Origin: Rhodothermales bacterium
GTDB lineage: Bacteria > Bacteroidota > Rhodothermia > Rhodothermales > UBA10348
NCBI GenBank assembly: GCA_017643395.1
Contig: JAEPNP010000008.1
Location: forward strand, 1 to 64,000
Length of the DNA stretch: 64,000 nucleotides
Direction: 5' to 3'
Position 1 is the first letter of the stretch. Every line of letters starts with the position of its first letter. Both the position numbers and the translations under genes were made by a program. Of this stretch, positions 15,070 to 52,182 are shown one piece after another. The notes under the pieces were generated by a model that saw only the letters and a list, made by a program, of their open reading frames with translations, did not search any database and had not been told where the DNA came from.

Positions 15070-17868
15070 CTACCAGCTGGCTCTGACTGCGAAGGTCACC
15101 ACGCGCGGCAGCAGCTCACGCACTCCTCGGTCCAGAATGCCGGAGTCCGGTGTCGAACTGTAGTAGCGCTCCTTGTCCAGGACGAACCGCCAGTCTGCCG
15201 TGTTGGTACGACCAAGCAGGTTGATGACGTCCAGGCGTGCCTGCATGCCGACCGGTCCCAACTCGAACGAGTAGCCGGCGCCGACGTCCAGCTGCACCAA
15301 ATCGGGCAGCTTGTGGGTGTCGGGTTCGGTCAATGCGTAGTGCTCAGCCTGTCGCCGAATCCGCTCACCGGTGCCCGTGTTGATGGTGGACTCGAGCAGG
15401 CGATCGAGGTCGTTCGAGTAGGCACCGAGAAAATCGTAGTAGGCCTGTCGGAATCCCCAGGTCCGACCGGAGATCATGCGCCAACGCGCCAGCAGGACCA
15501 TGCCCGCTCGAGGCATGACGTTCGTGGAGAGTTCCACGCGATGAGGCTCACCCCAGGGCACGGTGAGTAGCCGGTCCGTGCCCTGAATGCGGCGTCGGCC
15601 GTCCGTGTACTCGTATCGGGCCTGCAGGCTGGAGAGGCCGAATGATCGTTTCAGGACCAGGGAATAGCCCCGGGTGCTTCCGCTGGACGAGCGAAGGAAA
15701 TCAGACTGGGCAAGGTTGGGCACGTCGGTAGATGCCGCATAGTCGAGGGCAAGAATGTGGTAGTGCCGCTTGTAGTGGCTCTCCGCACTGACGGTCCACC
15801 GGGGGGCCGGCCGCCACAGTACTTCGCCCGTCAGATGGCCGGACTTGGGGGGAGCGACGCTTGAGTCGACAGCCATCCAGAACCGGGTGGACGAGACAAA
15901 CGTGCGCGGGCTGCGACTGGAGACATCAAACTGGTTGACAAACTGACGGTAGATGCCACTGCCGAGGTAAAAGGACCAATCGCCGGAACGGGTGCCCGGG
16001 AAATCCAGTCGCGCCGCCAGGCGGGGCTCGGCGTAGAGCGACTTCCTGGCAGCCAGGTAGGTGAACCGGCTTCCCATTTCGAGCACCGCATGCCGACCCA
16101 CCTGCATTTTGTCCTGTACAAAGGACGCGAAGCGCCAACCGGAGAAGCTGTGCTCAAGAGGCAGCTGCTGGCTGCCGGCGATTCGCACGCGATCCGATGT
16201 GAGAACCGCTTCGATACCGGCTTCTGCGTAGTGCCGGTCGGAGAGCGTATAGTCGATTCCTGCAGAGAGGCCAGCCTCCGAAACGCGATTTCCATCGTCC
16301 TCCGGGGAGGCGAGTGTAATCTGATCCCGGGCTACGAAGTCGTGGCGCAGGCCGTATCGGGAGTACCGGGCCTGCAGTGAGCCCAGGGATCGCGCCGAAA
16401 GCACGGCATCATAGGATACTTGCGCCGTGGCTGTCCGCCAGAAGTAGACGTCCGACAGCTGGCCCAAACTGTCTATGTCCACGATGCCTCCCGTGCTGGA
16501 GACGTCGATGCCGGAGAGGTCGTTGCCGAGCTGGCTGCCACCCAGAAACAGAGAGGCGCCGAGCGTTTGCAGGTTGCGCTTGACCTCTCCGGCCAGGTGC
16601 AGATCGCCGAACTGCATGCTGGGGCTGCCGATGGGCGGGAAGGTGTCGAAGGGCGTGTTGCGTTCGGCAAAGGCAGACAGCAGGAAGCTGTCGATGAGAT
16701 TCCAGTCGTCCAGCAGGTTTGAGAGACTGCGCGGCGCGGACAGGGACCACAAGCCGATGCGCGATGCCCCCATGACGGTCGCGCGCATATCGCGTCCCGC
16801 GTGCACGCCGGAGAAGCGTGCATTGATGCTGAGCGGGTCGGCCTGAACAAGCGAGCGAGAGGCGAATCCGGCCTCGGGATTGAGGCCGCGCAGGGCGTAG
16901 CGCAAGTCATGGCGCGCCTCGATCACACCCGAGATGTGACTTCCCAGCGGGGCGCCGAAGCCCGCCTTGTTGATTCGGATCGATCCGAGCGCAAACGGAC
17001 TGAACGGTCCGATGAAAGACGCGACGTTGAGCGGGATGAACACCGGCGCTCCGTCGAGCCTGAACTGATGCTCCCCGGCGTCGCCGCCCTGGATATGCAC
17101 GTCTCCGGTCGCGTCGTTCACACGCACGCCCATCAGGGCATCCAGGCCTTGCAGGCTGTTTGCGGTGCCCAAGCCGCTGGTAAGATCCTCCTGTTCGGCG
17201 AGGGCGAATCCCAGCACCGTGGACGAGGGCTGCATGGCCAGACCCTCCAGTACGAGGGGGGCTAGCAGGACTGCCTGGGCGGTGAGTTCGATTTCCGGGC
17301 GAACGGAGCCGCCCGGCTCGATGACAATTTGCCTGGAGGTGGTCTGGTAGCCGATGTGGGATACCTGTACGGCGTACTCGCCCGGCAGCAACCTGTCGAA
17401 AGCGAACATGCCGCTCTCATTGGCCACGCGGCCGCGCTGGGCTTCAGCCAGATAAACGTGCGCCGAAGGCACCGGCTGGCCGGTACCCGAGTCCACCACG
17501 ATGCCACGCATGTTGCCCCAGAGGGGAGGAGCCTCGATCGCGGCCTCGATGACGTACGTGCCGGACGAGCGACGGTAGAAGTCCAGGCCCGTGCCCCGCA
17601 GAATGCACTGCAGCACGCCCTCGACCCGCTCGTCGCGGGCGACACAATAGACCCGTTTGCCTTCCACAAGAATTGGAAGCCAGACGATGTTCAGGTCGGC
17701 CGCCGCCTGAAATTGCCGGAGTGTCTCATCCAGCGGCGTGCCGCGCCAGGCAAACGTGTACGTGGCGTCCTGGGCAGCGGCTTCCCTGACGGGCAAGGCC
17801 GCGACCAGCAGCAGAAGCAGCACCAGGGTTCGCATCCCGGCGCCGGCTATGGTATTCGTCCGCGACAT
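15070..17868 (-). CDS. TonB-dependent receptor with STN signalling domain
   Basis: The roughly 932-aa outer-membrane receptor has, in order, a signal peptide (MRTLVLLLLLVAALPV...AAAQ), an STN domain (about 35-110, TFAWRGTPLDETLRQFQAAA), a carboxypeptidase-regulatory-like domain (about 125-205, e.g. GIVVDSGTGQPVPSAHVYL), a plug (about 225-340, containing VHIQGGDAGEHQFRLDGAPV) and a beta-barrel to the C-terminus. The STN domain normally contacts FecR in the periplasm to signal ligand binding to the ECF sigma factor. Both partners lie upstream on the same strand. Ligand unknown (siderophore, vitamin B12 or glycan are possible). I chose the ATG at 17868; ATG 17835 is an alternative, and the longer open frame upstream is repeat-rich intergenic DNA. 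Confidence 0.88.
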   Translation of the reverse strand: MSRTNTIAGAGMRTLVLLLLLVAALPVREAAAQDATYTFAWRGTPLDETLRQFQAAADLNIVWLPILVEGKRVYCVARDERVEGVLQCILRGTGLDFYRRSSGTYVIEAAIEAPPLWGNMRGIVVDSGTGQPVPSAHVYLAEAQRGRVANESGMFAFDRLLPGEYAVQVSHIGYQTTSRQIVIEPGGSVRPEIELTAQAVLLAPLVLEGLAMQPSSTVLGFALAEQEDLTSGLGTANSLQGLDALMGVRVNDATGDVHIQGGDAGEHQFRLDGAPVFIPLNVASFIGPFSPFALGSIRINKAGFGAPLGSHISGVIEARHDLRYALRGLNPEAGFASRSLVQADPLSINARFSGVHAGRDMRATVMGASRIGLWSLSAPRSLSNLLDDWNLIDSFLLSAFAERNTPFDTFPPIGSPSMQFGDLHLAGEVKRNLQTLGASLFLGGSQLGNDLSGIDVSSTGGIVDIDSLGQLSDVYFWRTATAQVSYDAVLSARSLGSLQARYSRYGLRHDFVARDQITLASPEDDGNRVSEAGLSAGIDYTLSDRHYAEAGIEAVLTSDRVRIAGSQQLPLEHSFSGWRFASFVQDKMQVGRHAVLEMGSRFTYLAARKSLYAEPRLAARLDFPGTRSGDWSFYLGSGIYRQFVNQFDVSSRSPRTFVSSTRFWMAVDSSVAPPKSGHLTGEVLWRPAPRWTVSAESHYKRHYHILALDYAASTDVPNLAQSDFLRSSSGSTRGYSLVLKRSFGLSSLQARYEYTDGRRRIQGTDRLLTVPWGEPHRVELSTNVMPRAGMVLLARWRMISGRTWGFRQAYYDFLGAYSNDLDRLLESTINTGTGERIRRQAEHYALTEPDTHKLPDLVQLDVGAGYSFELGPVGMQARLDVINLLGRTNTADWRFVLDKERYYSSTPDSGILDRGVRELLPRVVTFAVRASW

Positions 17869-17887
17869 CTGTCCAATACCGGACAGA
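17868..17887 (-). promoter_or_regulatory. Inverted repeat touching the receptor start codon
   Basis: On the minus strand the sequence TCTGTCC GGTATT GGACAGA forms a perfect 7-bp dyad with a 6-nt centre, and its last base is the A of the receptor's ATG. It could be a protein operator or an RNA hairpin that hides the translation start. No Shine-Dalgarno sequence is evident here. Confidence 0.5.
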
Positions 17888-18073
17888 CCGTGCAACCTCA
17901 ATCCTACGGTCCGCCCAGACCGAAAAATACCGCGCAGCGAGACGGGATACAGTGACGCCAGGGGAGTGGTGCAGACAGTTCGCCACCCATACGCGGCAGG
18001 TCGAAGCGAGTGCCGCGAAAAATCGTGGCCGCGGGGTAGTGGGTGGGTGCTGCTCCGGATGTGGTGTGCGGGG

Positions 18074-18205
18074 TCGAAAACGGGGCCCTGATTACACAAC
18101 TACACCCTTCCAAGAGCACCCTTGGTCGAATACGGGCCCTGATTCCACAATCGCGGGCTTCGAAGGGCCGCCGAGGTTGAATCCGGGGCCCTGATTCCAC
18201 ATTGG
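18074..18205. repeat. 51-bp-period intergenic repeat, three units
   Basis: Three copies of a core (C)GGGGCCCTGATTCCACA begin near 18083, 18134 and 18186 (the first has GATTACACA), giving spacings of 51 and 52 bp. Each is preceded by TCGAA or TTGAAT. They belong to the same family as arrays at 23947, 38425 and 54592. The rest of the 430-bp gap between the receptor and fecR (17869-18298) shows no gene. Confidence 0.75.
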
Positions 18206-18298
18206 CGGGGTGGAGGGCGGTGGCGGCCCCGCGACTAACGCTGGGCGCGGTGCGGGCAGCCCCAGGCCTCCCGGTCACGGCCCTGCGCAACCGAAACG

Positions 18299-19273
18299 CT
18301 ACGGCCGCTCGCTCTGATACACCTCGAACCCGTTCGCCGTGGGCCGGATCTCGGCACCCACCGCATCGGCCAGGTCCGCGAGAATCTGGTCTATGCCGAT
18401 CGTCGTCTCCCGCCAGTAGTTGACCTCGATGCGACTGATGGCCTCGGTAGCGTCGATACGCAGGTCGAAGCGTCGCTCGAGCTCTTCAAACACCCCACCG
18501 AGGGCGACACCATCAAAGGCCAGACCGCCGAAGCGCCATGCCGTGGCGCGCTCTACCGAAACCGGTTGGGGAGCCTGTACGGTCGTGGCGACACGAGTAC
18601 CCTGACCGGCGGTCAACCGTACCTCGTCGTCATCACCGGACACGCGCACGACACCGTGCTCGACCGCAACCTGTGTCGCGTACTCAAACCGGGATTCCCG
18701 GGCCCGCACGTTGAAGGCGGTCCCGACCACTTCCACGGACGAATTAAACGTGCCGATGCGGAACGGCAGGTCGCCGGATTCCGAAGCGGGCGTCACATCG
18801 AAGAAGGCCTCACCGTCCAGGTCTACGGAGCGGTCGGAGACGGCAAACCCGTCTGAGACACGGAGTTCTGTGTGTGGAGCGAGGTCCACACTTGTGCCGT
18901 CCACCAGATTGATCGAAGCCACCGCATCGCCGGCCCGGTACACGGACTGGGAGGGATGCGTCAGGTAGCCCGCCATTACAAACAGCAGCAGACTCGCGGC
19001 TACCGCCGTGTATTGGCGGAACACCGAGGTGCGTACAAGACGCAGCATGCGCACCGGTGCGGCCTGTCGCGGCGCAACGCTCGGCGAGAGCCGCACGGAG
19101 GGTCGCTCGGCCGTCATGGCTGCCAGGGCCTGCCACGAGCGGGCCTTCACACCGGCATCGACTGCCGGGGCGTCACCCGCCAATTCCCAGGCCTCCTTGA
19201 GGACCTCCCGCTCATCAGCAGGCACCTCCGCAAGGACGCGTTGCAGGGAATCGTATGATCCGGCGTTACGCAT
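18299..19273 (-). CDS. fecR: FecR-family anti-sigma factor / signal transducer
   Basis: The 324-aa inner-membrane protein has a cytoplasmic N-terminal region (1-85), one transmembrane helix (about 88-105, YTAVAASLLLFVMAGYL) and a periplasmic FecR domain with the family phrases LVDGTSVDLAPHTELRV, DLDGEAFFDV and FNVRARESRFEYATQVAVEHGV. A C-terminal STN-like segment of about 70 residues ends the protein. It transmits receptor occupancy to the ECF sigma factor, whose gene ends 13 bp upstream. Together with the downstream STN receptor this is a Fec-type cell-surface signalling set. Confidence 0.92.
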   Translation of the reverse strand: MRNAGSYDSLQRVLAEVPADEREVLKEAWELAGDAPAVDAGVKARSWQALAAMTAERPSVRLSPSVAPRQAAPVRMLRLVRTSVFRQYTAVAASLLLFVMAGYLTHPSQSVYRAGDAVASINLVDGTSVDLAPHTELRVSDGFAVSDRSVDLDGEAFFDVTPASESGDLPFRIGTFNSSVEVVGTAFNVRARESRFEYATQVAVEHGVVRVSGDDDEVRLTAGQGTRVATTVQAPQPVSVERATAWRFGGLAFDGVALGGVFEELERRFDLRIDATEAISRIEVNYWRETTIGIDQILADLADAVGAEIRPTANGFEVYQSERP

Positions 19274-19286
19274 GGTGAATTGCAGC

Positions 19287-19862
19287 CTAACGGACTTCCA
19301 CGCCTGCCTCGCGGTAGGCGTCCAGTTTCTTCCGTATGTGCTGCAGGGCTAGCACGATGTGGTTGTTGACAGTCTTTGGCGCGAGGCCCATCAACTTCGA
19401 TATCTCCTCGTGGCTCAGACCCTCCCGGCGGCTCAGCAGGAACGCCTCTTTCCGGCGTTCGGGCATCGCGTTGATCCAGGAGTTGATCTTGCTACCGAGG
19501 GTATCGGCGTCGATGTAGTCCTCTACAGAATGTTCGTCCGAAGAGAGTTCTGAGCCGGCATCCAGAGCCTCTGTCCGACGGCGCTTCTTGTGTCGCTCAT
19601 GGTTGAGCGATGCATTTCGCACCATCTGAAACAGAAGCGCCTTCAGCGAACGCTCTGGGTCAAGCGAATCCCGGACCTGCCAGATCTTGGCAAAGGCCTC
19701 CTGAACCAGGTCCGCTGCAGCCTCCCGATCACGCACGATGTAGTCCGCATAGCGATACAACGGGTCGTGCATGTTTTCAAACAGGGCGGCGAAAGCTTCC
19801 CGGTCAGAAGACCGTATGGCGATCGACCAGATCCGAAACTGCCCTTCCGAAACGTCAGACAT
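19287..19862 (-). CDS. ECF RNA polymerase sigma factor, FecI type
   Basis: The 191-aa protein contains sigma region 2 (about 20-90, with FENMHDPLYRYADYIVRDRE and the core-binding AADLVQEAFAKIWQ) and region 4 (about 125-180, with RRKEAFLLSRREGLSHEEIS and the helix-turn-helix end LAPKTVNNHIVLALQHIRK). This is the Bacteroidota FecI-like/RpoE-like form. It precedes fecR by 13 bp and presumably activates the TonB receptor gene downstream. Confidence 0.93.
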   Translation of the reverse strand: MSDVSEGQFRIWSIAIRSSDREAFAALFENMHDPLYRYADYIVRDREAAADLVQEAFAKIWQVRDSLDPERSLKALLFQMVRNASLNHERHKKRRRTEALDAGSELSSDEHSVEDYIDADTLGSKINSWINAMPERRKEAFLLSRREGLSHEEISKLMGLAPKTVNNHIVLALQHIRKKLDAYREAGVEVR

Positions 19863-23946: not shown

Positions 23947-24303
23947 CTCTGATTGCGTCAACCTATTCGGCCGCCCGGGGCGCGATCAGGTTCCATATTG
24001 GCTCGGATTGAACCTATTCGGGCGCCCGGGGCACGATTAGGTTCCATATTGGCTCGGATTGAACCTCTTCGGCCACCCGGGGCGCGATCAGGTTCCATAT
24101 CGGCGCTGAGTCAATCTTTTCGGCCACCAGGGGCGCGATCAGGTTCCATATTGGCTCGGATTGAACCTCTTCGGCCGCCCGGGGCGCGATTAGGTTCCAT
24201 ATTGGCTCGGATTGAACCTATTCGGCCGCCAGGGGCGCGATTAGGTTCCATACCGCCGCTGAGTCAACCTATTCGGCCGCCCGGGGCGCGATCAGGTTCA
24301 ATA
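23947..24303. repeat. 51-bp tandem repeat array, seven units
   Basis: The core CGCGATCAGGTTC (with CACGAT, CGATTAGG and similar variants) begins at 23981, 24032, 24083, 24134, 24185, 24236 and 24287, an exact 51-bp period. A typical unit is CTTCGGCCGCCCGGGG, then CGCGATTAGGTTCCATA, then TTGGCTCGGATTGAACCT. The last segment has two versions, TTGGCTCGGATTGAACC and CGGCGCTGAGTCAACC. Most units carry an AGGTTC...GAACCT dyad with a 16-nt centre. The array fills the gap between the convergent lepB and L,D-transpeptidase genes. Confidence 0.92.
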
Positions 24304-38117: not shown

Positions 38118-38400
38118 GGGGGGCTCGGCGGGCTCGGCGGCGCGGGGTGGAGCCCGCCCGGCGGCTTGGCGCTGGCGTGGCGCTGGCGTGGCGGCGTGGC
38201 GTGGCGCTGGCGTGGCGCTGGCGTGGCGGCGTGGCGTGGAGCCCTCTCGGCGCCGTGGCGGGGCGCCCGCCCGGCGGCTTGGCGCTGGCGTGGCGGCGTG
38301 GCGTGGAGCCCTCTCGGCGCCGTGGCGGGGCGCCCGGGGTGCCCGCCCGGCGGCCGAACGAGGCCCACAGGCCCGCGGATGCCGCCGGCTCGACCCGAGC
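38118..38400. repeat. G-rich low-complexity direct repeats
   Basis: The segment is built of GGCGTGGCG and GGCGCTGGCG modules. A roughly 50-bp block starting GCGTGGCGGCGTGGCGTGGA and ending CGGGGCGCCCG occurs at 38221 and again at 38288. A block starting CCCGCCCGGCGGCTTGGCG occurs at 38153 and 38266, and in part at 38342. All frames stay open by composition. I see no gene in it. The G-rich strand is the coding strand of the neighbours. Confidence 0.85.
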
Positions 38401-46497: not shown

Positions 46498-46572
46498 ACC
46501 GACGCTGGCGCGCCCCAACCGAGCTCCGCTCAGGCCCGGCGCGGACCCCATCGCACGAACCCTGCGTTTCGT

Positions 46573-46601
46573 GTAAACCGCGCCACGCCGCATGCTGTCT
46601 A
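46573..46601 (+). promoter_or_regulatory. Possible ECF-type promoter upstream of the sigma gene
   Basis: GTAAAC (46573-46578), a 17-nt gap and TGTCTA (46596-46601) resemble an ECF promoter (AAC in the -35, GTCTA in the -10). The spacing would place the start of transcription about 20 nt before the ATG. Only one instance is seen, so this is a weak pattern. Confidence 0.25.
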
Positions 46602-46626: not shown

Positions 46627-47187
46627 ATGTACGCCGTCACCCAAACACTCCCCATGGAGACCCCGCTCCACCGCCAGCTGGACTTTCCGCAGATCGTCCG
46701 GCAATACAAACGGGGCGTTCTGGCGCTGGCCTACGACCTGACGGGCAACGCGCATGACGCCGAGGACCTAGCGCAGGAGGTGTTTATCAAGGCCCATCGT
46801 GGGCTCTCGACCTTTCGCGGAGACTCCGGCATCTATGCCTGGCTGCGGCGCATTGCGGTCAACACACACCTGAATCGCAAGCGGAAAAAAGCCGTCAGCC
46901 ACATGAGGCTGTTCGGCGACGTCTCGGAAACCGACACCTGGGAAGGCGCCGAAAGGCCACCGGATTCCGGTGCCGAGGCCACAGACACCCGCTCGCACAT
47001 AGATCGTGCGCTCGAGCAGCTCTCTCCCCGAGAACGCAGTGCGTTCGTCATGCGACACTACCAGGAGCTCTCCACCCGCGAGGTGGCCGAGGCGATGGGC
47101 GTGGCGGACGGCACCGTGAAGAGTCTGCTTTTCCGCGCCACCACAAAACTTCGTTCCTCCCTGCATTACCTGAGGCAGGAATCATGA
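46627..47187 (+). CDS. ECF RNA polymerase sigma factor
   Basis: The 186-aa product has sigma region 2 (about 20-90, LALAYDLTGNAHDAEDLAQE, then FIKAHRGLSTFRGDS and YAWLRRIAVNTHLN) and region 4 (about 125-180, QLSPRERSAFVMRHYQELST, then VADGTVKSLLFRATTKLR). This is an RpoE-type group, distinct from the FecI-like one at 19287. It overlaps the anti-sigma gene by 4 nt, and four HEAT-repeat genes follow, so it probably controls them. ATG 46654 is an alternative start. Confidence 0.93.
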   Translation: MYAVTQTLPMETPLHRQLDFPQIVRQYKRGVLALAYDLTGNAHDAEDLAQEVFIKAHRGLSTFRGDSGIYAWLRRIAVNTHLNRKRKKAVSHMRLFGDVSETDTWEGAERPPDSGAEATDTRSHIDRALEQLSPRERSAFVMRHYQELSTREVAEAMGVADGTVKSLLFRATTKLRSSLHYLRQES

Positions 47188-47978
47188 AAGAGAATCATTT
47201 CACCGCGTGTGAATCCTGGCAGCCTGTCATGGTCGATGTCCTCTTCGGCGATGCCGACGAGGCTGTGATTGCGAACCATCTACGGGAATGCCCGACCTGC
47301 GCCGCTGAGTTTCGCTCGCTGCAGGAGACGCTCGAGTTGACCGCGGATCGGCCGGCCTTCGCGCCTGAAGAAGCCGTTCTTGCGCGCCTGGAAGAGCGCG
47401 TCCTGACCGAAACGGCTCGTCACACGCTGCGCCCGTTGCCGATGCCCCGGATGCGTCGTTTGCCCGCGTGGACGTATCGCATGGTTGCCGTGGCCGCTGT
47501 TCTGGTGATCGGGATTGCCATCGGACGCCTCATTCCGCAGGAGGAGACCAGCGCTCCGAATGCCAGTCTGCCTTTGACTGCGCAGCTCACGCCTGTGGAA
47601 GCCCGCGCACATTCGTACCTCGACCGCTCAAAGACGGTGCTGCTCGGCGTGGTCAATTTTGACCCTGCGACGGACAACCCGGCCAGCCTGAACCTGCCTC
47701 AGCGCAGTGCGATTGCCTCAGAACTGCTGCAGGAGGCCAACTTTCTGAAGACGACACTCTCCGAGTCTGAACAGCAGCGTCTGAGGGCCCTGGTCAGCGA
47801 ACTCGAAATCATTCTGCTTCAACTCGCCAATCTTGAGGAGCGCGTGGACGTGCCCGAACTCGAGATCATGAAGGCGGGCGTGGATCAGAACGCACTCCTT
47901 TTCAAGATCGATGTGGAGCAGATGCGCCGCACGGTGAGCAAACCCGAGACCCGCAAGGATCCGGGAGCGGCCGTGTAG
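47184..47978 (+). CDS. Anti-sigma factor with zinc-finger-like N-terminus
   Basis: The 264-aa product has an N-terminal anti-sigma zinc-binding pattern (Cys near 9, His-Leu-Arg-Glu-Cys-Pro-Thr-Cys at about 32-39), one transmembrane helix (about 100-118, MVAVAAVLVIGIAIGRLI) and an external domain (about 120-264) with a long helical region (EQQRLRALVSELEIILLQL). It presumably holds the ECF sigma factor until a signal reaches the periplasmic domain. Its ATG overlaps the sigma stop (ATGA). The first HEAT gene follows 56 bp later. Confidence 0.85.
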   Translation: MKENHFTACESWQPVMVDVLFGDADEAVIANHLRECPTCAAEFRSLQETLELTADRPAFAPEEAVLARLEERVLTETARHTLRPLPMPRMRRLPAWTYRMVAVAAVLVIGIAIGRLIPQEETSAPNASLPLTAQLTPVEARAHSYLDRSKTVLLGVVNFDPATDNPASLNLPQRSAIASELLQEANFLKTTLSESEQQRLRALVSELEIILLQLANLEERVDVPELEIMKAGVDQNALLFKIDVEQMRRTVSKPETRKDPGAAV

Positions 47979-48034
47979 CGCTACCCGTCGACTGTACATA
48001 GATACGCCAGCCTCCGGGCCATCCGGAAAGAGCC

Positions 48035-49783
48035 ATGACCAAGTACAAGATCATCCTGATTGTGCTGCTGACGACACTTGTCGCGCCAGCCGCCGCCCAG
48101 ACTTCCGACGCAGATGCCGCCTACCGTGCGGCCAATTCCCTGGTATTGGACCAGCGCTGGTCCGAGGCCCGCGACGCGATGCGGCAGTTTGCGCGGACGT
48201 ACAGCCGTCATGACCGCGCCGACGATGCGTCATTCTACGCCTGCTACGCGCAGGATCAGCTGGACTCGGCCTCGTCCGCGGTATTTGAGTGCTACTCCGA
48301 CTTCGTGGAAGCCCACGGTCGCAGCAACTACGCCGACGATGCCAAAGCCAACATGATCAGGGTGGCTCGTGCGCTCTCGAGTGCCGGCCAGCCCGAGTAC
48401 ATGACCCGCATTAGGGATCTGCAGCAGGAGAACGATGAGGACGTGGCTCTGGCCGCCCTGTATGCCCTCCAAAACCTCGGCGACGATCGCGCGCTGGACA
48501 CCATTCTGGCCGTCTACGACCGCTCGACGAGCGACAAGGTGCGCAGCCGCATCGTGTATATGCTGGGCGATTTCGACAGCGACGCAGTGATGCCCAAACT
48601 CCAGGAGATTGCCCTCGGCAACGCGTCCGTTTCCGTGCGCAAGAGCGCGGTCTACGCCCTGGGCAATCACGACTCGCACAACGAGGCTGTCACGGCGCTG
48701 AAGGCCATAGTGGCTTCGGATGCGGAGACCGAAATCCGCAAGACCGCGGTCCGCGCCCTTGGCAATGTGGATGCTCCCGACATGGTGCCAGTACTCGCCG
48801 AACTGGCTGCCGGCTCCGGCGACATCGAGCTGGGCAAGGCGGCGGTGTACGCGATGGGCAACAGCGACGGAGCGGCAGCCGTGGAGGCGCTCAAAACCAT
48901 TGTTTCGGGCGATGGGGCCGTCGAAGTCCGGAAGGCCGCGCTGTATGCCCTGGGCAACAGCGACCACGGTGGGTTGGTGCCGTTCCTGGCTGAGATCGCG
49001 ACATCCTCCACCAATGCGGAACTGGCAAAAACTGCAGCCTACGCCATCGGAAACCACGATTCAAGCGCCGGCTCGGAGGCGTTGATGTCCGTGGTCCAGA
49101 ACGGCAAGTCCGTCGAGGTACGGAAGGCGGCGCTGTATGCGCTGGGCAACCGGGACGGCGCGCGTGCGGTTGAAATGCTGCGCGAGGTGGCCATGTCTTC
49201 TGATGACAACGAGTTGCAGAAGGCTGCTGTCTACGCCATCGGAAATGCGGATGGCGAGAGTGCATCGCGCGCTCTGCGGCAGATTTACGGCGCAAGCGAG
49301 TCGGTGGAGGTCCGGAAAGCGATCCTGTATGCCATCGGAAACAGCGAAGGGCGGGGTGCCAGGGACTTCCTCATGGACGTCGCGACGACCTCGGCAGAGT
49401 CGGAACTGGCCAAGGCTGCCGTGTACGCGCTGGGCAACCACGTCGATGACGATACCAGTGTGCTCATCGAAGTCCTGCGCAAGGCCACGAATGCCGAGGT
49501 CCGCCGAGCCGCGCTCTACGCCATCGGCAATTCCGATACGAGCCAGGCGACCGCGGCCCTGGATAGCATCTTGAAAGATGAGCGCGACCCCGAATTGCGC
49601 CGTGCCGCCGTATTCGCACTGGGCAATACGGGTGAGGACCGCGCTGTCTCAATCCTGGTGCGCGTGGTCCAGGAAGATGCCAGCACGCGCGTGCGCACCG
49701 CGGCTGTTCAGGCCCTTGGCAACATAGGCACGGAGGCTGCGCAGGAGGCCTTGCTCAAAATCCTGGAAGGCGGCGACGACTAG
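48035..49783 (+). CDS. Exported HEAT-repeat protein, 14 repeats
   Basis: The 582-aa product has a signal peptide (MTKYKIILIVLLTTLVAPAA), a helical region of about 90 residues that looks TPR-like (about 25-115), then 14 HEAT repeats of about 31 residues to the C-terminus. The phrase VRKAALYALGNSD recurs with small changes. Most successive repeats alternate between VRK-type and L(A/G/Q)K-type helices. HEAT solenoids usually bind proteins. Third gene of the sigma/anti-sigma cluster. There is no catalytic motif. Confidence 0.9.
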   Translation: MTKYKIILIVLLTTLVAPAAAQTSDADAAYRAANSLVLDQRWSEARDAMRQFARTYSRHDRADDASFYACYAQDQLDSASSAVFECYSDFVEAHGRSNYADDAKANMIRVARALSSAGQPEYMTRIRDLQQENDEDVALAALYALQNLGDDRALDTILAVYDRSTSDKVRSRIVYMLGDFDSDAVMPKLQEIALGNASVSVRKSAVYALGNHDSHNEAVTALKAIVASDAETEIRKTAVRALGNVDAPDMVPVLAELAAGSGDIELGKAAVYAMGNSDGAAAVEALKTIVSGDGAVEVRKAALYALGNSDHGGLVPFLAEIATSSTNAELAKTAAYAIGNHDSSAGSEALMSVVQNGKSVEVRKAALYALGNRDGARAVEMLREVAMSSDDNELQKAAVYAIGNADGESASRALRQIYGASESVEVRKAILYAIGNSEGRGARDFLMDVATTSAESELAKAAVYALGNHVDDDTSVLIEVLRKATNAEVRRAALYAIGNSDTSQATAALDSILKDERDPELRRAAVFALGNTGEDRAVSILVRVVQEDASTRVRTAAVQALGNIGTEAAQEALLKILEGGDD

Positions 49784-49790
49784 TCGGTTT

Positions 49791-49806
49791 GTCGCCGCAG
49801 GGCGAC
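49791..49806 (+). terminator. Hairpin between HEAT genes 1 and 2
   Basis: GTCGCC (49791-49796) and GGCGAC (49801-49806) pair around the loop GCAG, 8 nt after the first HEAT stop, in a 100-bp gap. No T-run follows. It may give partial termination or mark an mRNA processing site. Confidence 0.4.
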
Positions 49807-49883
49807 GCGCAATCACCCATTAACACGGTTCTTCGGCCGATGTGCGGCACGAATAGCCACCACTGTATCTGGAGGAAACTGCC

Positions 49884-50510
49884 ATGAACACAACGAAATT
49901 CCTGGGATGGGCCACCATCGGTGCCGCTGCGCTCCTGATCGCGTCCCCCTTCATTGTAGACGAGGTCCGCACCGCTACGCAGTCCGCCAAAGTGGTCCTT
50001 GCAGACACCCCGGTGCCTTCGGACTCTGAAGATCCTGAGGTGGCCAAGGCTGCCATTTATGCGCTGGCGAACTCGCTGGAGGAGGGAGAGATTGATCTTC
50101 TGGTGCCCATCGTCAACGAGGCGAAGCATGAGGAGGTGCGCAAGGCAGCGCTCTACGCCATTGGAAACGTTGGCGGAGCATCGGCTGCGGAGTTTCTAAA
50201 GGAAACGGCCATCTCGCACCGGGAGACCGAGACCGCCAAGGCCGCGCTGTACGCTTTGTCGAACACGATCGAGGACAACGACGTCGGTCCGCTTGTAGAG
50301 GTGCTGCAGAAATCGGATGTGCTCGAAGTCCGGAAGGCGGCCCTGTACCAGATCGGCAATGAGGACTCTGAGGAGGCCGTCGCTACGCTCGCCGAGATCG
50401 CGCGGGAGGGCGAACCGGAGTTGCGGAAAGCGGCCGTCTATGCGCTGGGGAACAGTGACCTGGAGTCAGCTCGGGAGGTGCTGATCAACCTGGTCGGCGG
50501 GTTGGACTAA
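49884..50510 (+). CDS. HEAT-repeat protein, five repeats, membrane-anchored or exported
   Basis: The 208-aa product starts with a hydrophobic segment (about 7-25, LGWATIGAAALLIASPFIV) that acts as a signal peptide or anchor. Residues 45-208 contain five HEAT repeats (e.g. VRKAALYAIGNVG, VRKAALYQIGNED, LRKAAVYALGNSD). A good ribosome-binding site, GGAGG, precedes the ATG by 8 nt. The stop overlaps the next HEAT gene by one base (TAATG). Repeat sequences are close to those of the upstream protein, so the two probably arose by duplication. Confidence 0.87.
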   Translation: MNTTKFLGWATIGAAALLIASPFIVDEVRTATQSAKVVLADTPVPSDSEDPEVAKAAIYALANSLEEGEIDLLVPIVNEAKHEEVRKAALYAIGNVGGASAAEFLKETAISHRETETAKAALYALSNTIEDNDVGPLVEVLQKSDVLEVRKAALYQIGNEDSEEAVATLAEIAREGEPELRKAAVYALGNSDLESAREVLINLVGGLD

Positions 50511-51307
50511 TGCGTCGCCTGCTCATTGCATTTCTCCTGCTGAGTCCGGGCATGGTCCGGGCTCAGCAGGTGGTTCAGCCTCCCGCCACGGCGGAGACCT
50601 TTGAGGACCGCCTTTCCTGGGCGCTGGCCCAGCGGGGGGAGGCGACCATACTTTGGACCGTGGATTCGCAGGCCATGATGTCGTCCTGGTCGGAGAACGA
50701 TCCGCCGTTGCGTGAGGTGCTCGGCCTGTCTGACGGAGACCCGGCCCAGGCAGCCATCATGCTTAGACTCGAGGGAGGATCGGTGGTCCACATCCGTACG
50801 CAGAGGCTGGATTCTCCGGCAGTGGAACGAAGGCCAGAGGAGCGCAGAAGGCCGATCCGCTGGTTGGGTGCCGCTACTCAATCGGAGAGTTTCGCGGCGC
50901 TTTCCGGGCTGAGCGTCAGCGGCCGGGCGATACGGGGCAGACTGTACGCCTACGGGATTCTGTCTGATGTGCCGGCAGCAGGTCGCGTGGTCTCAGATGC
51001 GCTGGTCTCAAGCGAGTCCGTCGACCTGCGGAAGGCCGCCGCGTATGCGTTGGGCAGGCACTCGGGAAACGATGCCATAGAGCGACTGAAGCGGGCCTCG
51101 CTGGAGGACCCGTCCGTTGATGTCTCCAAGGCGGCCGGGTACGCCATCGGGGCCGTGAACACGCCCGAGGCCCTGACGGCCTTGCAGGACCTCATCGCCC
51201 GTCACACGTCCCGGGAAATCCGGAAGGCGGCGGTGTATGCAGTGGGGAACCTGGACCTGCCGGAAGCCCGGATGTACTTGCTGGAACTCGCCCGCACGGA
51301 ACAATGA
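50510..51307 (+). CDS. HEAT-repeat protein, exported, three clear repeats
   Basis: The 265-aa product begins with a signal peptide (MRRLLIAFLLLSPGMVRAQ). The first 150 residues show no clear family (including LSWALAQRGEATILWTVDSQ). The C-terminal third has three HEAT repeats (LRKAAAYALGRHS, VSKAAGYAIGAVN, IRKAAVYAVGNLD). It is linked to its neighbours by a 1-nt overlap upstream and a 4-nt overlap (ATGA) downstream. Confidence 0.85.
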   Translation: MRRLLIAFLLLSPGMVRAQQVVQPPATAETFEDRLSWALAQRGEATILWTVDSQAMMSSWSENDPPLREVLGLSDGDPAQAAIMLRLEGGSVVHIRTQRLDSPAVERRPEERRRPIRWLGAATQSESFAALSGLSVSGRAIRGRLYAYGILSDVPAAGRVVSDALVSSESVDLRKAAAYALGRHSGNDAIERLKRASLEDPSVDVSKAAGYAIGAVNTPEALTALQDLIARHTSREIRKAAVYAVGNLDLPEARMYLLELARTEQ

Positions 51308-52182
51308 AGGAGAAGTTGGCAGTGTGGGCCGCCGTCCTGACCCTCGCGGTGCCGGCCTCCGGGCAGGATGTCGTACGGGCCACCGGGGTACACGTCACCG
51401 AGTCGCTCAGCTACGCTGCAGGGATCGCGCAGGATCGGGAGTGGGACCGTGTCTGGGTGGGGTTCACCGTTCCTCGCACGGAGTACGGCGGTATGTACTA
51501 CGGCGGCAATCTGAATTCAGACCGACGCACTCTGGAAGACGTTTTGGATCCACCGACGGTCGAGCAGGCGGCCCGGCGCGCACTGCTGCGCGCATCCGGT
51601 GAGGAGACAGAAACGACCGCCGTGGCTGTCCTTCTTCAGCTTGAGGAGGGTAGTCTTCGGGATGCGCGCATTCGGTCGATGGGCGCGCCAGCGGGACTCG
51701 GCGGGCAGCCGTTGGTCTGGCTGGGGGAGGCGGACCCGCTAGATTCCCTGCCCTGGCTCATGGCGCTCCTGGACGATTCACGTGGGGAATTACGGGAGGA
51801 CCTAGTGTCTGCAATCGGTCTGCACGAATTGCCGGATACCGTTGTGCCGTTTCTCTTTGAGCTTGCCCACTCCGATCCGGATGAGGAGGTCAGGGAACGG
51901 GCGCGTTTCTGGATGGCCGATGCCGTTGCGAGCCGGATGGGCCTCATGCGTGGCTCGGCCGAAGAGCGAGATAGCGACGACGCTCGCGTGCAACGGAGCG
52001 CCGTCTATGCGCTGGTGAATTCCGACGAGGCCGGCGCTCCGGCGAGGCTGGAGCGCTTGATTGAGTCAGGCACCAGCAAAGAGGTCAAGCGGCATGCCGT
52101 CTTGAATCTTGCCTATCTGGACGACGGTCGGGGCCTGCCTGCGCTGGAGGTCCTGGCCCGGAGGGCGGGTCTCTTGAAGTAG
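51304..52182 (+). CDS. HEAT-repeat-like protein, exported, most divergent of the four
   Basis: The 292-aa product has a signal peptide (MKEKLAVWAAVLTLAVPASG, cleavage near 20). The N-terminal half resembles that of the preceding protein in plan (e.g. EDVLDPPTVEQAARRALLRA and QPLVWLGEAD). The C-terminal half holds four eroded HEAT repeats (LREDLVSAIGLHE, VRERARFWMADAV, VQRSAVYALVNSD, VKRHAVLNLAYLD). It ends the sigma/anti-sigma/HEAT cluster and converges on the CBS gene. Confidence 0.8.
   Translation: MKEKLAVWAAVLTLAVPASGQDVVRATGVHVTESLSYAAGIAQDREWDRVWVGFTVPRTEYGGMYYGGNLNSDRRTLEDVLDPPTVEQAARRALLRASGEETETTAVAVLLQLEEGSLRDARIRSMGAPAGLGGQPLVWLGEADPLDSLPWLMALLDDSRGELREDLVSAIGLHELPDTVVPFLFELAHSDPDEEVRERARFWMADAVASRMGLMRGSAEERDSDDARVQRSAVYALVNSDEAGAPARLERLIESGTSKEVKRHAVLNLAYLDDGRGLPALEVLARRAGLLK

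Follow-up and report, generated by a model that had tools for sequence, protein, structure and literature searches.

An ECF sigma factor operon with four exported-looking HEAT-repeat proteins in a Rhodothermales bacterium and a candidate extracytoplasmic partner of its membrane anti-sigma factor

The window studied here is a stretch of 64,000 nucleotides from a Rhodothermales bacterium (GCA_017643395.1), which is part of contig C8 in a genome of 4.5 Mb. It contains an operon of six genes for an extracytoplasmic function (ECF) sigma factor, a membrane anti-sigma factor, and four HEAT-repeat proteins, here called HEAT1 to HEAT4, the first of which carries a head resembling tetratricopeptide repeats (TPR). 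The promoter and the genes are located as follows:

46572-46600, forward strand: predicted autoregulatory ECF promoter, TGTAAACC-N16-TGTCT, ending 26 nt 5' of the sigma ATG
46627-47187, forward strand: ECF sigma factor with sigma2 and sigma4 domains (Pfam, NCBIfam)
47184-47978, forward strand: membrane anti-sigma factor with an HxxxCxxC finger, a transmembrane helix at about 95-116 and a predicted extracytoplasmic helical bundle at 137-252 (alignments A1 and A3; AlphaFold2)
48035-49783, forward strand: HEAT1, with a hydrophobic N-terminus, a TPR-like head and 14 HEAT repeats (Pfam HEAT_2)
48098-48490, forward strand: head of HEAT1 as used in profile A4, comprising the TPR-like segment and the first HEAT unit (20-locus alignment)
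49884-50510, forward strand: HEAT2, with an apparent N-terminal membrane anchor and 5 HEAT repeats (Pfam HEAT_2)
50510-51307, forward strand: HEAT3, with a hydrophobic N-terminus, an N-terminal domain in common with HEAT4 and 3 HEAT repeats (Pfam HEAT_2)
51304-52182, forward strand: HEAT4, with a hydrophobic N-terminus, an alpha/beta N-terminal domain (23-142) and 4 HEAT repeats (Pfam HEAT_2, AlphaFold2)

The sigma and anti-sigma genes overlap by 4 nt, HEAT2 and HEAT3 by 1 nt, and HEAT3 and HEAT4 by 4 nt, and there is a gap of 56 nt between the anti-sigma gene and HEAT1 and of 100 nt between HEAT1 and HEAT2. The coordinates, strand and overlaps of the six genes in a preliminary description of this DNA were all correct, and our results support the operon layout proposed there. 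Counting the repeat motif by eye likewise gave 14, 5, 3, and 4 repeats, and a hydrophobic N-terminus was seen by eye in all four HEAT proteins. None of the six proteins matches an enzyme family in Pfam, as had also been stated. The segments of HEAT1, HEAT3, and HEAT4 beyond the HEAT repeats and the promoter motif of the sigma gene are features additional to that description.

The sigma factor, a protein of 186 amino acids, matches Sigma70_r2 (3.7e-17) and Sigma70_r4_2 (2.3e-17) over the Pfam cut-offs, and scores 110.4 bits against NCBIfam TIGR02937 (cut-off 42.9). Among the 25 NCBIfam families listed, the named equivalogs all fall under their own cut-offs. The anti-sigma protein has no Pfam match at E 0.1 and scores 44.1 bits against the equivalog NF052375 in NCBIfam, under the curated cut-off of 100. 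The CPTC motif reported earlier is present and is part of an HxxxCxxC finger, the residues of which (H32, C36, and C39) are invariant in 24/24 aligned anti-sigmas. We take HxxxCxxC in an anti-sigma factor to be the zinc-binding anti-sigma (ZAS) signature. As judged from its sequence, in which the motif is followed by a transmembrane helix, the protein fits the ZAS-type membrane class, and is predicted to inhibit the sigma factor. The anti-sigma protein of a congeneric species is 57% identical to it. The AlphaFold2 model (pLDDT 83.6, pTM 0.51) contains the hydrophobic transmembrane helix at about 95-116, followed by helices at 137-157, 171-191, 195-215, 223-235, and 238-252, and the outer part, which is conserved in the comparisons, is predicted to form a helical bundle. 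A Foldseek search with the model gave no match at E 0.001 or better, an absence that proves nothing, and VIA-align retrieved common helical bundles (best Z 8.8, 129 aligned, root-mean-square deviation 5.9). No structural identity was assigned to the outer domain, as the structure lists gave generic helical bundles only.

All four HEAT proteins match HEAT_2 over the curated Pfam cut-off (HEAT1 1.2e-62, HEAT2 7.5e-21, HEAT3 3.5e-14, and HEAT4 1.7e-10). The TPR-like segment of HEAT1, at residues 23-119 approximately, is matched by the YbgF and BamD models, both below cut-off; for YbgF (TIGR02795), the score is 28.3 bits and the cut-off 90.1. Aligned over 20 loci, the head has a mean column identity of 56%. 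It contains two cysteines at about residues 70 and 86 (CY ... CY), of which the first is present in 20/20 loci and the second, missing in L055 and L094, in 18/20; they possibly form a disulphide. By eye, the N-terminus of HEAT2 looks like an uncleaved membrane anchor. Homologs of HEAT2 that are 46-58% identical to it are located at the same place in four loci (L029, L033, L034, and L036), and its repeats resemble those of HEAT1, in that the HEAT2 homologs match HEAT1. HEAT3 and HEAT4 can be aligned over their length (alignment A2) with 23% identity and have a non-HEAT N-terminal domain in common. The AlphaFold2 model of HEAT4 (pLDDT 85.3, pTM 0.77) contains strands and helices in residues 23-142, followed by helical hairpins. 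Foldseek gave no match to this model at E 0.001 or better, which again proves nothing; the VIA-align rows fell mainly on the HEAT part (best Z 9.4, 129 aligned, root-mean-square deviation 4.2), which resembles binding solenoids such as alphaRep and the importins, none of them at E 0.001 or better. The N-terminal domain was left without a structural identity, the structure lists having matched HEAT-type solenoids only. The four proteins had been described as a duplicated solenoid family. Because HEAT3 and HEAT4 align and share a domain, while HEAT1 is TPR-headed and the repeats of HEAT2 are like those of HEAT1, the sequences look more like two kinds of HEAT protein than a single four-fold duplication.

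We searched for the anti-sigma protein in 60 genomes at the level of the order, the window's own included. Matches were obtained in 17 genomes, 13 of them below E 1e-13, and in 13/13 of the latter a HEAT1-type gene is located directly next to the anti-sigma gene, counting G041, in which the operon is split over two contigs. At the best-match loci of four genomes with weaker anti-sigma matches (G030, G038, G048, and G052), the HEAT profile identified no HEAT gene, a result obtained with gene calling that missed genes in AT-richer genomes. Four HEAT genes are present in the window and in L029, L033, and L036, and one to three in the other loci, some of which are truncated where a contig stops. 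When named genomes were scanned, 17 loci were obtained, of which seven, by contig, were relatives already counted, some of them named Rhodothermales. The ten further loci were from Aminicenantes, KSB1, a metagenome-assembled genome named Deferribacteres, Melioribacteraceae (by G167 from the window's own phylum), Terriglobia, Acidobacteria, Latescibacterota, and one other bacterium. A HEAT1-type gene follows the anti-sigma gene in nine of these ten out-of-order loci, and L057 stops at a contig end. Thirteen loci were also fetched from a search of the phylum. Nine of them (L093-L101, with L093 being the same place as L056) have a HEAT1-like gene next to the anti-sigma match, some only distantly alike, and two (L104 and L105) have neither a HEAT1-like nor a DUF4097 gene beside it. 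Homologs of HEAT4 are located behind HEAT1 in several phyla (L051, L053, L055, L061, L094, L095, and L097), and on this presence HEAT2 and HEAT3 look like additions of the order.

The association of HEAT genes with the sigma/anti-sigma pair is thus conserved both in the order and across phyla outside it. The preliminary description had named as its first refuter that homologs of the HEAT genes usually lie away from the sigma pair; this fails for the HEAT1-type genes, and HEAT proteins in general do sit elsewhere in the genome. Indeed, HEAT repeats are abundant, with 26 HEAT_2 matches genome-wide, as would suit a chance or lineage-specific adjacency of unrelated genes. However, the linkage persists across Bacteroidota, Acidobacteriota, KSB1, Latescibacterota, and further groups, and we consider such an adjacency extremely improbable. 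One exported-looking HEAT protein of 263 amino acids stands alone on contig C5 (L001:6387-7175, forward strand), where the called neighbours have no sigma or anti-sigma match.

The remaining two of the thirteen loci, L102 and L103, are from the same order, and their sigma factors are 55% and 52% identical to that of the window. In the sigma phylogeny they group with the HEAT-linked sigmas of the order in a fork of 13 rows with support 100/99; the root was drawn at the midpoint, and a wider HEAT-linked set encloses the fork. Of their anti-sigmas, only the N-terminal half is matched by the anti-sigma profile, at positions 2-131 (L102) and 4-129 (L103) of 269, and the gene after the anti-sigma gene encodes DUF4097, as identified by Pfam in L102 and by similar sequence in L103. 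L103 retains the promoter motif. In these loci, which number only two, the outer half of the anti-sigma factor and the neighbour gene differ together.

The HEAT proteins may be effectors only, serving as envelope scaffolds or as binders of damaged or misfolded envelope protein, with the anti-sigma factor sensing alone. The HEAT genes share an operon behind the sigma promoter, they range in number from one to four, and the HEAT part of the HEAT4 model is like binding solenoids, all of which suits effectors. Yet a gene with the same head stays beside this type of anti-sigma in several phyla, and L102 and L103 differ in both the outer half and the neighbour gene. We regard a purely effector role as doubtful. 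The HEAT genes had previously been taken as targets of the sigma factor, for which the shared operon speaks; that they are targets only is questionable, as the anti-sigma outer domain and the TPR-headed protein are a long-conserved pair, a pattern that also fits a signalling partner.

The reverse search was made with profile A4 of the HEAT1 head, the rows of which were chosen from loci already holding the module. In 394 genomes of the phylum, it matched 19 places in 16 genomes, and 16 of the 19 adjoin an anti-sigma match, 11 of the 19 being the profile's own rows. Five of the eight non-profile matches adjoin an anti-sigma match, and two of the eight are proteins of another kind, with about 1020 amino acids. 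At the eighth, in G035 (L161), a sigma factor with 41% identity is encoded upstream of the head match, and no anti-sigma was called. In Acidobacteriota, the phylum of G428 (L061), head matches at E 1e-6 were found in 110 of 297 genomes. An anti-sigma match is located just upstream on the same strand in 29/29 fetched loci, none of them a profile row, these loci being the best head matches and not a random sample. The upstream anti-sigma was matched directly in 28 loci and by coordinates in L172, and each of the 29 matches reaches the outer domain, at position 230 of the model or beyond. By coordinates, 32 of 46 listed head matches in this phylum, down to E 2.1e-11, have a full-length anti-sigma upstream, a figure that is on the low side, since no more than eight candidates were scored in each genome. 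Conversely, a head match lies downstream of 50 of the 68 listed near-end-to-end anti-sigma matches, in partly selected lists from which partial anti-sigma rows were dropped, and with a head set that includes 20 weaker rows chosen mostly since the genome also had an anti-sigma row.

HEAT repeats were identified in 11 of the 29 Acidobacteriota partners by a HEAT profile built from the window's repeats. When the remaining 18 were compared with Pfam HEAT_2, four were over cut-off, eight had sub-cut-off matches and six had none at E 0.01, and TPR models were over cut-off in most of the 18. Our own profile is therefore insensitive, as Pfam recovers repeats in four of the 18 partners in which it identified none. 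Because Pfam found HEAT_2 where our profile saw none, the suggestion from these sequences that HEAT repeats were a late addition to a TPR-headed partner is held less firmly.

Upstream of the sigma gene, the motif [TC]G[TC][ACT]AAC[CG]-N16-[CT]GTC[TC] occurs at the same spacing in 16 of 23 orthologous loci, whereas 200 dinucleotide shuffles gave a mean of 0.005 and a maximum of 1. The pattern had been derived from the very sequences that were later counted. Six of the 29 loci stand outside this count (L098, L100, L101, L102, L103, and L105), of which L098 and L103 have the site. With this conserved motif of the ECF promoter type in front of the sigma gene, autoregulation of the operon is probable. 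The strict form GTAAACC-N16-TGTC has a single match in the window's genome, which is the operon promoter. The strict sites in the 13 operon-bearing genomes comprise nine promoters of the operons themselves, eight sites upstream of other genes, and six inside genes. Three of the eight precede MacB_PCD genes (L123, L124, and L129), with the matches just behind the sites; MacB_PCD is a common family, to which each of the four genomes searched has 31 to 110 matches. The 18 operon-less genomes, defined as those without an anti-sigma match in the 60-genome search, although some show a weak match to the anti-sigma profile, contain 11 strict matches, seven of them inside genes, and 15 matches to the reversed-pattern control. 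At position 1500 of L209 (G007) there is a site nearly identical to the operon promoter of a congeneric genome; no gene was called downstream of it, and it may be left over from an operon that has been lost.

With up to two mismatches, 43 sites were found in the window's genome (G000) and 14 for the control. Thirty-three of the 43 are inside genes, three are intergenic without a near gene, and seven are upstream of a gene, namely the operon, a 791-aa MacB/FtsX permease, an HlyD-family adaptor, a DUF4097 protein (L157), a DUF5916/CBM9 protein, a 426-aa protein, and an ndk-like gene. The start codons of some of these predicted targets are uncertain. The last, named by sequence, was rejected as a target, as the site overlaps its start and was taken as chance, and two matches with a 15-nt spacer (C5:119506 and C8:62466, the latter inside a gene) were also set aside. 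The permease has an ortholog in the congener G001 that is 65% identical over 796 amino acids, the site lying 32 and 29 nt away from the start codon in the two species, and the ortholog of the 426-aa gene is 73% identical, with sites 65 and 61 nt from a common methionine. The 426-aa family looks exported and has no Pfam match, and the motif is upstream of it in both species (L141:159-1445, reverse strand; L160:1590-2867, forward strand). DUF5916-type genes carry a site in both G000 and G001, but these two are only 32% identical, and G027 has a site upstream of a DUF5916-looking gene (L110). Genes that by eye look like DUF5916/CBM9 are also found beside the module in L035, L094, L051, and L101, in a family that likewise has predicted sites.

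Since similar sites precede the permease, adaptor, DUF4097, DUF5916, and 426-aa genes, the predicted sites suggest an envelope-stress regulon that is not dedicated to the HEAT proteins. The envelope theme of the preliminary description and the location of the HEAT proteins outside the cytoplasm are supported by the sequences, and it is the dedicated nature of the signal that seems not to hold, with predicted sites also before the permease, efflux adaptor, DUF4097, and DUF5916 genes.

Taken together, the operon may represent an autoregulated ECF sigma/membrane anti-sigma module for envelope stress with its own extracytoplasmic partner protein, an explanation that we put forward tentatively and rate slightly short of probable. 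Since the pairing recurs in several bacterial phyla, the repeat proteins may be part of the signalling device and not only its output, and the conserved gene neighbourhoods point to HEAT1 as the most likely extracytoplasmic partner of the anti-sigma factor. In such a module, the sigma factor would read the TGTAAACC-N16-TGTCT-type motif, and the head of HEAT1 would touch the outer bundle of the anti-sigma factor, while the HEAT1 solenoid, the anchored HEAT2, and HEAT3 and HEAT4 would bind an envelope component. Envelope damage would then alter the complex and lead to inactivation of the anti-sigma factor, through either its proteolysis or its release, whereupon the sigma factor, now free, would transcribe its own operon and the genes for the MacB/FtsX permease, the HlyD-type adaptor, DUF5916, and DUF4097, predicted targets that fit a role in envelope stress. 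The extra partner protein could reset or tune the switch. Both the direction of the HEAT1 effect and the signal are inferred here.

Several observations weigh against this explanation. The adjacency and the autoregulation would also be expected if HEAT1 were just the main target of the sigma factor. The motif is missing upstream of 7 of the 23 sigma genes. The strict sites in the 13 operon-bearing genomes number 23, and those of a reversed-pattern control 21; with up to two mismatches, there are 38 sites in G001 and 32 for the control. Strict sites other than those of the operons themselves are placed upstream of a gene in 8/14 cases, compared with 2 or 3 of 10 sites in the operon-less genomes, a difference without significance (Fisher p 0.10 or 0.24; L209 was dropped from this comparison). 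HEAT repeats are found in 15 of the 29 Acidobacteriota partners; because HEAT_2 matches below cut-off occur in eight of the remaining 14, the HEAT repeats may have diverged there instead of being absent. The reverse searches, having been made with the head as probe, do not distinguish retention of the head from retention of the HEAT part. Finally, 18 of the 68 listed full-length anti-sigma matches in Acidobacteriota are without a listed head match downstream.

In the sigmaE-RseA-RseB system, an ECF sigma factor, a membrane anti-sigma factor, and an extracytoplasmic accessory protein are encoded together. The operon in the window likewise encodes these three components together, but its accessory protein is TPR-like and HEAT-containing without an RseB match, and its anti-sigma factor differs in the HxxxCxxC finger and in the helical bundle predicted for its outer part. 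One particular version of the partner-protein explanation is that HEAT1 acts as a negative-feedback protector like RseB, shielding the anti-sigma factor from proteolysis until titrated away by an envelope ligand. The analogous layout, the position of HEAT1 as the third gene, and the probable autoregulation are in line with this, but HEAT1 to HEAT4 have no match to Pfam MucB_RseB at E 0.1, and we find this form unlikely.

In a broader form, the partner-protein explanation would make exported TPR-like/HEAT solenoids a new multi-phylum class of partners or receptors for ECF anti-sigmas with a helical-bundle outer domain. These would be three-part envelope sensors in which the number of HEAT proteins varies and the outer half can be exchanged as a unit, as in the DUF4097 version. 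This generalization is conceivable, and we consider it somewhat less probable than the explanation proposed for the operon itself. To our knowledge, the signal sensed by many ECF anti-sigma factors is not known. Here, in several phyla, of which many are represented mostly by metagenome assemblies, a conserved outer domain is accompanied by a conserved candidate partner. Together with the predicted promoter and target list, this makes the signal and the partnership directly testable. The operon also offers an initial functional setting for HEAT and TPR proteins that are exported but so far named by repeat type only.

A survey of phage shock protein (PSP) systems (PMC11237479) describes Toastrack (DUF4097) systems to which a sigma factor is linked in the operon. 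They resemble the present operon in combining membrane signalling with a linked sigma factor, and a DUF4097 gene is among the predicted targets here (L157) and is the neighbour in L102 and, as judged from sequence, in L103. However, HEAT genes hold the place of DUF4097 in most of the relatives seen. The terms "anti-sigma" and "HEAT repeat" do not occur in the text of the survey. The TPR proteins CpoB/YbgF of the Tol-Pal system have an exported TPR domain with a protein-binding role, according to the accessible part of PMC7391070. HEAT1 is like them in its exported-looking TPR-like domain with the weak YbgF match of 28.3 bits, and unlike them in being far under the 90.1-bit cut-off and having a long HEAT solenoid attached. 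In the accessible literature consulted on HEAT repeats with sigma factors or DUF4097, we found no description of the pairing. As far as their accessible text goes, PMC3174227 and PMC10434189 mention HEAT repeats in gene tables, and the sole "heat" in PMC7406223 is in a reference title.

Another envelope-sensor family, BlaI-BlaR1 (M56), is also tied to HEAT repeats in the same genome. On contig C2, a Peptidase_M56 (BlaR1) protein of 1165 amino acids with seven HEAT_2 stretches (L002:3420-6914, reverse strand) is encoded beside a BlaI-type (Penicillinase_R) repressor (L002:6920-7306, reverse strand). Unlike the operon in the window, this is a metalloprotease/repressor pair in which the HEAT repeats are fused to the sensor and not separately encoded. 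By analogy, the fusion ties HEAT repeats to another sensor, as a parallel and not as proof.

The operon is flanked by a gene with a formyltransferase domain upstream and a convergent gene with a CBS domain downstream. A second sigma/anti-sigma pair in the window is a FecI/FecR-like cassette at 15070-19862 on the reverse strand, which contains a sigma-like open reading frame identified by sequence (19287-19862), FecR (18302-19273), and a large protein with a carboxypeptidase-regulatory-like domain. Tandem repeats, with periods that include 13 and 51 bp, are located at 148-339, 23960-24303, and 38163-38336 of the window.

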